The position numbers and the translations under genes are program-made. DNA of 64,000 bases from a bacterium. GTDB lineage: Bacteria > Arandabacterota > Arandabacteria > Arandabacterales > Arandabacteraceae. Under the pieces are notes generated by a model, which was given only the letters and a program-made list of their open reading frames with translations, made no database searches and was not told the origin of the DNA. The stretch spans positions 380,073 through 444,072 of the forward strand of contig JAOZOU010000001.1 in the NCBI GenBank assembly GCA_029933125.1, written 5' to 3'. Below are positions 49,193 through 50,511 of this stretch, piece by piece (the first letter of the stretch is position 1; every line of letters begins with the position of its first letter).

Positions 49193-49399
49193 TCACTCTG
49201 TTCCCGTGCTTTTCCCCTGCAATGCTGGCCATTCAGCGAATGCGAGGTAAAAGATCATGACAAGATTAACAATTGGTAGGACCATGAGAAGTGAAAGCGC
49301 TCCAGGGAATCCAGCCTTGCTGAAGATACGCCAGAATGGTAAGACCACAATAAGCGCTATCAGAATCATCGACAAGAGTATGCTGCCTGCAGTCACCAT
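49193..49399 (-). CDS. Small integral membrane protein
   Basis: 68 residues from ATG 49399 with AAAGGAGGGCGAAG upstream. Two hydrophobic helices (ILLSMILIALIVVLPFWRIF and GALSLLMVLPIVNLVMIFYL) joined by SKAGFPG. The W-x-I-F-x-K-A-G-x-P-G and P-x-V-N pattern is like the DUF5684 group of small membrane proteins. Function unknown. The 122-nt gap to the peroxiredoxin gene upstream holds no obvious signal. Confidence 0.75.
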   Translation of the reverse strand: MVTAGSILLSMILIALIVVLPFWRIFSKAGFPGALSLLMVLPIVNLVMIFYLAFAEWPALQGKSTGTE

Positions 49400-49521: not shown

Positions 49522-50223
49522 CTAAGGTTTCCACACCTCCCAGACTTTGCCAACAAGCCCTGGTCCAGGCTTCAGAGTAACCTGCCCGACCTGCCACCCC
49601 GATGGTGTCACCTCGCCTGTGTTCCGCACATGCTGAAATGCCTTTATCTGACGAATGAGCTCATCAGGATTACGGCCCACCTCCGGTGTCAGGACTTCCA
49701 TTGCACGAATCACAAAATCGGGATCGATTATGAAACGCCCTCTGATATCAACACCAGCCGCTTCATCATAAACACCATAGATTGCTCCAATCCTGCCGCC
49801 GGCATCCGAAAGCATGGGGAAGGGAACACCACCCTCAACCATCTTTGAAAGCTCCTGCTCCTGCCAGATCTTATGAACGAAACGGCTATCGGTACTCATT
49901 GAGAGCACTTCAACTCCCATTGCCTTAAGCTCCTGATAGCGGGCAGCGACCGCTGCCAATTCTGTCGGTCAGACAAATGTGAAGTCACCAGGATAGAAGC
50001 AAAGCACAATCCATTGACCCTTGTAGTCGGATAGTTTTACTGGCTTGAATCCATAGTCTCTTACAAATGCGGTAGCTTCAAAATCAGGAGCTGGTTTGCC
50101 AACTCTTGCAATCATCCCGACTCCTCCTGAAAGCTTTCTTCCCCCGTATGCCTCTCCCGCTTCTTCCTCAGGGAGCAGCGGACCCCTTGCAGGCTGGACA
50201 CATCCATCCTTAAGCTCTGCCAT
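49522..50223 (-). CDS. Selenocysteine-containing peroxiredoxin (AhpC/TSA family)
   Basis: 233 residues if the in-frame TGA at 49971-49969 (codon 85) is read as selenocysteine; both halves are in the same frame and form one AhpC-like protein. The active site reads P78-x3-T82-x2-U85 ([16 protein letters not shown]), with U exactly at the peroxidatic cysteine. Start ATG 50223 follows GAGGAGGTGGCT. A SECIS-like hairpin lies just after the codon. A residue normally serving as resolving Cys (GEVCP) is Thr206 here (GEVTPSGW); other cysteines are C8 in an extra 35-residue N-terminal extension and C75. It should reduce peroxides in the cytoplasm with thiol recycling by an unknown donor. Conventional calling would give two broken ORFs (49969-50223 and 49522-49959). 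A simple nonsense mutation is the alternative, less likely given the hairpin. Confidence 0.87.
49942..49971 (-). promoter_or_regulatory. Sec codon and SECIS-like hairpin in the peroxiredoxin mRNA
   Basis: Minus strand: TGA (49971-49969), 11 nt, then GGCAGC (49957-49952), loop GGTC (49951-49948), GCTGCC (49947-49942), a perfect 6-bp stem with 4-nt loop. The loop is 17 nt after the TGA, inside the range for bacterial SECIS elements, and starts with GGU as in the E. coli fdhF apical loop. A lower stem GACCG/CGGTC is an alternative pairing. Confidence 0.75.
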
Positions 50224-50511
50224 AGCCACCTCCTCGTTTAAGAGCGACCTATTCTCGAAATGACACCTTTGGCTAATCTTGAATCCGTAACAATCCTGTC
50301 AACTTTCTCCTTATAGCTCAAACCAAAACCTCGTAAAGGTCAATCGGATTTTTGGCAATCGCAATATCGCTGGGCCCAAGGGTAGGATGCCAACATGCGG
50401 ATATACTTACCAAGGGAAAGATCCTAGCCCTGCATGAAGAACTGCTAACCCTCTTCGAAGGCTCCGTCAAGGAGCCTTCCTTCGGCAAGATGCCTTATCC
50501 TAGGCCAAACC
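50224..50511. other. Intergenic region between M1 peptidase and peroxiredoxin
   Basis: 288 nt without a gene. Besides the hairpin at 50457-50479, a minus-strand TTGACA lies at 50302-50297, but no acceptable -10 follows it, so no promoter for the peroxiredoxin gene is called. No ORF with a ribosome site was seen. Confidence 0.5.
50457..50479 (-). terminator. Hairpin downstream of the M1 peptidase gene (possible terminator)
   Basis: Perfect 9-bp stem GAAGGCTCC / GGAGCCTTC with a 5-nt loop, 33 nt after the peptidase stop codon in the transcribed direction. The following bases (GAAGAGGG) contain no U-run, so it may be a Rho-assisted terminator or 3'-end stabiliser. Confidence 0.5.

Follow-up and report, generated by a model that had tools for sequence, protein, structure and literature searches.

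A probable selenocysteine-containing peroxiredoxin of the PrxU family in a member of the Arandabacterota

Peroxiredoxins that contain selenocysteine (Sec) have been catalogued since 2001, as cited in PMC9312934, PMC1794560 and PMC13188914, and their characteristic motif is given as TxxU (PMC13188914, PMC1088965). The family called PrxU was first described from Eubacterium acidaminophilum by Soehling et al. in 2001 (as cited in PMC8533274 and PMC9312934). Here we analyze a gene on the minus strand at positions 49522 to 50223 of the window, by which we mean the whole stretch of 64,000 nucleotides under study. The gene, prxU, has a UGA at codon 85 and its product is a predicted selenoprotein of 233 residues. 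We hold it to be nearly certain that this codon is decoded as Sec by means of SelB, tRNA-Sec and a hairpin, and that the product is a peroxidase of the Prx1/AhpC fold for which recycling by an external thiol is most likely. The gene is well supported as a new member of an already known bacterial family and does not represent a new kind of system. The initial annotation had proposed a probable selenoprotein, a proposal that is supported by the TGA in all orthologues read, the presence of the Sec machinery and a covarying SECIS element. It had also remarked that Sec at the peroxidatic site is known from a few peroxiredoxins. Sec is indeed known at this site, but this is not a rare oddity: the protein is a member of a named family, PrxU (NF040737).

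Gene calling with translation table 11 splits the prxU frame into two open reading frames, 49969-50229 (which includes an upstream in-frame GTG) and 49522-49959. Re-reading the minus strand from 50223 to 49522 yields a single frame of 233 residues with the TGA at 49971-49969 as its sole break. Together with the whole-length match to one family model described below, this bears out the earlier statement that the two split frames are one frame interrupted only by TGA. The frame starts with an ATG (50223-50221), is directly preceded by the strong Shine-Dalgarno-like sequence GAGGAGGTG (50227-50235, minus strand, read directly from the DNA) and ends with the stop codon TAG at 49524-49522. The first start available to the second half, a TTG at 49959, is part of the conserved PTEL motif and is therefore no credible gene start.

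An NCBIfam search assigns the product to NF040737 (peroxi_PrxU) with 374.3 bits, where the curated cut-off is 270, covering model positions 2 to 230 of 233. The AhpC equivalog model TIGR03137 reaches 182, below its own cut-off of 272. In Pfam, AhpC-TSA matches residues 41-174 (4e-37), and so extends across the TGA, accompanied by the C-terminal domain 1-cysPrx_C. As a single model covers both halves from end to end, the TGA-joined frame is not due to chance. The likeness to PrxU is drawn via the family model: the equivalog cut-off is exceeded by a match that spans the whole length, the TxxU motif is present with an in-frame UGA at the peroxidatic position, and so is the SECIS element. Within the family the window protein is a long form with an N-terminal extension (residues 1-37, 50113-50223, minus strand), a conserved DGCVxPxxGP arm carrying the invariant Cys8, whereas many of the Firmicutes matches are short forms without the arm.

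With the typical 2-Cys peroxiredoxins (AhpC, human Prx2) the protein has in common the Prx1/AhpC fold, the PxxxT motif and Arg161, at approximately 45% identity to human Prx2 in a structural alignment. The predicted structure (mean pLDDT 80) has the standard Prx fold and matches Prx1/AhpC structures. The initial annotation had placed the TGA at the peroxidatic cysteine of AhpC/TSA enzymes and had given the motif as P-x3-T-x2-U. Both points are borne out: in the alignment to human peroxiredoxin-2 the TGA (49969-49971, minus strand) falls on the peroxidatic cysteine, and the motif reads P78-GDF-T82-FV-U85. In the same alignment Thr206 (codon at 49606-49608, minus strand) falls on the resolving cysteine. 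The protein thus differs from the typical 2-Cys enzymes in having predicted Sec for the peroxidatic Cys and Thr206 for the C-terminal resolving Cys, with GEVTPSGW where these have GEVCPAGW and hence no VCP motif. The Prx-like thiol:disulfide oxidoreductase selenoproteins are also Sec-containing redox proteins of the thioredoxin fold, but their motif is UxxC whereas that of the window protein is TxxU.

Homologues were collected with scan patterns that exclude the TGA site, which returned 80 loci. The codon at the Sec site is TGA in 84 of 84 loci, a set that combines the scan loci with those of the window's phylum and that includes the window itself as well as one contig present twice; TGC, TAA and TAG are found in none. 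According to the record titles these loci come from Chloroflexota, Nitrospirae, Desulfobacterales, Armatimonadetes, Acidobacteriota, Spirochaetales, Latescibacteria, Krumholzibacteriia, Zixiibacteriota and others. A survey of 398 Firmicutes genomes, Firmicutes being the phylum of the Desulfovirgula record, shows an in-frame TGA in 49 of 49 matches above the cut-off, and TGA is located at the Sec codon in all 39 loci read. The comparison of this codon among orthologues, by which the initial annotation had suggested judging the case, consequently gives no TAA, TAG or random stops. One Cys form below the cut-off, an ordinary AhpC, was read as well and has TGC at the codon together with Cys206. 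Both halves of the protein are conserved in 45 alignment rows with 72-85% identity to the window protein.

Bacterial SECIS elements are described by a loop of 3-9 nt, a stem of at least 4 bp, a G in the first two loop positions and a distance of 16-37 nt from the UGA (PMC13188914). In the window a hairpin, GGCAGC-GGUC-GCUGCC (49942-49957, minus strand), begins 11 nt 3' of the UGA. With its 6-bp stem GGCAGC/GCUGCC and a GGUC loop located 17 nt after the UGA, it agrees with this description. Since an Rfam search around prxU gave no match, the hairpin was tested by covariation in 83 distinct sequences, over the 57 nt that follow the TGA. The bSECIS geometry is seen in 80 of these 83. Bases at offsets 17 and 26 are paired in 82 sequences, and those at 20 and 23 in all 83. 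No other combination of columns within the 57 nt has a mutual information as high as that of these two pairs, whose pairing was equalled by none of 10,000 shuffles. Both pairs join third codon positions, so that the common changes are synonymous (GCG...GCC against GCA...GCU). That the two strongest covarying column pairs are synonymous-site pairs argues for an RNA structure under selection. When followed on a tree of the remainder of the gene, the states of the pairs changed at least 19 and at least 7 times, and the covariation is therefore not a single inherited event. Family hairpins also exceed their synonymous recodings in stability (mean z -1.5; 66 of 83 below -1), whereas the window hairpin taken alone is unremarkable (z -0.25 against shuffles of a 66-nt stretch, z -0.94 against synonymous recoding). 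The predicted SECIS element draws its support from the family sequences taken together and not from the window copy.

A search for the Sec machinery had likewise been suggested, and all of its parts are found. The window's assembly (3.2 Mb, 97% complete) encodes tRNA-Sec with a UCA anticodon, SelA, SelB (398 bits, on the window's own contig, C42) and SelD, the set expected of a bacterium with selenoproteins. SelB is above the cut-off in 29 of 33 other PrxU-bearing genomes; the missing match in the other four is most simply explained by the incompleteness of draft genomes. The selD gene is present twice in the assembly. One copy is interrupted by an in-frame TGA shortly after its start (AGUASK, which we take to be the usual SelD active-site motif) and lies directly upstream of tRNA-Sec (contig C171:209908-211036). 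The TGA-free copy is located on contig C76, so that a Sec form of SelD and a TGA-free one coexist in one genome. Another redox gene with a TGA is found at 224334-224669 of contig C42: a ResA/TlpA-like sequence with NFTAPGUPACF (UxxC) following a TPR-like region, which makes it a candidate of the general UxxC kind. Judged by eye, a hairpin 3' of its TGA (TGCGG-AGTTG-CCGCA) appears to fit the bSECIS rule.

Several other readings of the TGA in prxU have to be weighed against Sec decoding. The two open reading frames returned by table 11 are what one would see if a nonsense mutation or sequencing error had struck the gene of a Cys peroxiredoxin and turned it into a pseudogene or into two split genes. 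However, the same TGA occurs in 84 loci of many phyla and in 39 more, the halves are conserved and the hairpin covaries; such a defect has next to no chance of being the explanation and is rejected. The orthologues, and the SECIS hairpin through its synonymous-site covariation, likewise exclude a TGC misread as TGA. The initial annotation was right that the halves are intact and conserved, but it saw in this no preference between recoding and a recent nonsense mutation; on that point the comparative data decide for recoding.

An in-frame TGA that is read through might also point to genetic code 4 or 25 in this genome, with TGA standing for an ordinary amino acid and residue 85 then being Trp or Gly. 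The probability of this is practically nil: selA, selB and other long genes of the genome are open without in-frame TGA, the SECIS element and the Sec machinery are present, and the peroxidatic residue of a peroxiredoxin must be a thiol or selenol. Finally, Sec decoding in general competes with termination, and readthrough could be partial, with the 84-residue truncated product having a regulatory role of its own. Such a piece would break off halfway through the Prx fold, immediately ahead of the catalytic residue, and nothing conserved hints at a separate function. We consider this role very improbable, and the decoding of codon 85 as Sec is the reading followed below.

With respect to recycling of the oxidized selenium, residue 206 is never Cys in the TGA homologues read; Thr, Met, Ala, Ile or Leu is found there. 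As the C-terminal resolving cysteine is absent in all of them, resolution must differ from that in typical 2-Cys enzymes. Two other cysteines are widespread: Cys75 is present in 84 of 84 first loci and 37 of 39 further Firmicutes loci, and Cys8 is aligned in 82 of the 84 and does not vary in the 45 rows in which long forms were aligned. This distribution, together with the lack of Cys206, would favor a route in which Sec decoding is the same but the Cys8 arm or Cys75 acts as the resolving residue through a Se-S bond, instead of direct reduction by an external thiol. Such a route is a serious possibility, though we lean against it. The NF040737 loci L109 to L147 show two architectures, a long one with the N-terminal Cys8 arm and a short one without. 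Short forms lack Cys8, and one of them (L130) has no Cys besides the predicted Sec, which implies that neither Cys8 nor Cys75 is needed across the family. Moreover, the N-terminal arm is only partly confident in the predicted model (block pLDDT 44-77). Direct reduction by a thioredoxin-like thiol would accordingly be the simplest family-wide reading. That long-form PrxU resolves the oxidized selenium via Cys8 of the arm, unlike the usual C-terminal position, and that this was taken up after Sec had made the C-terminal Cys dispensable, seems unlikely. A literature search on the recycling mechanism of PrxU gave nothing beyond passing mentions and papers that cite the 2001 description.

Taking external-thiol recycling as the preferred reading, we infer the following course of events. 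SelB and tRNA-Sec, directed by the hairpin that starts 11 nt downstream, would translate UGA codon 85 as Sec. The selenolate of Sec85, replacing the peroxidatic thiolate, would then attack H2O2 or organic hydroperoxides in an active site presumably shaped by Pro78, Thr82 and Arg161. Sec85 would thereby be oxidized to the selenenic acid, which the usual C-terminal cysteine, being absent, would not resolve. Its reduction would most likely be achieved by an external thiol, such as that of a thioredoxin-like protein, perhaps through Cys75 or Cys8.

The genes flanking prxU encode a small membrane protein, a DUF6754 protein, an M1-type peptidase and FAD-dependent oxidoreductases. Around the homologues (57 neighbours) there is no fixed operon partner or conserved redox operon, rubrerythrin being the most frequent neighbour with 7 of 57; for this reason the reductant cannot be read from gene order. 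Directly 3' of prxU lies a gene for a small hydrophobic protein of 68 amino acids without a Pfam match (49193-49399, minus strand), and a clear relative of it is also located 3' of prxU in the nearest relative (L029:3812-4021).

The window was also scanned for TGA-joined frames with flanks of at least 50 and at least 40 codons. Among the 75 frames obtained, only prxU was recognized by eye as one family on both sides, and no second selenoprotein was recognized in this way. Two further joined frames look genic, both on the minus strand: at TGA 16893 an FlhF-like part is followed by a sigma-factor-like part, and at TGA 27952 an FlgD-like part by a flagellar-operon-like protein. By eye each appears to consist of two neighbouring genes in the same frame. 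They are useful negative examples for TGA-readthrough scans.

From a practical point of view, gene callers that use table 11 cut genes such as prxU in two. With prxU, a little-studied bacterial lineage, represented in our comparison by 8 genomes of its phylum, gains a well-supported selenoprotein. With TGA at every above-cut-off locus read, the alignments suggest that the PrxU family uses Sec as a rule, and that the use of Sec is accompanied by the loss of a C-terminal resolving cysteine. It thereby becomes a testable question why PrxU has kept Sec.
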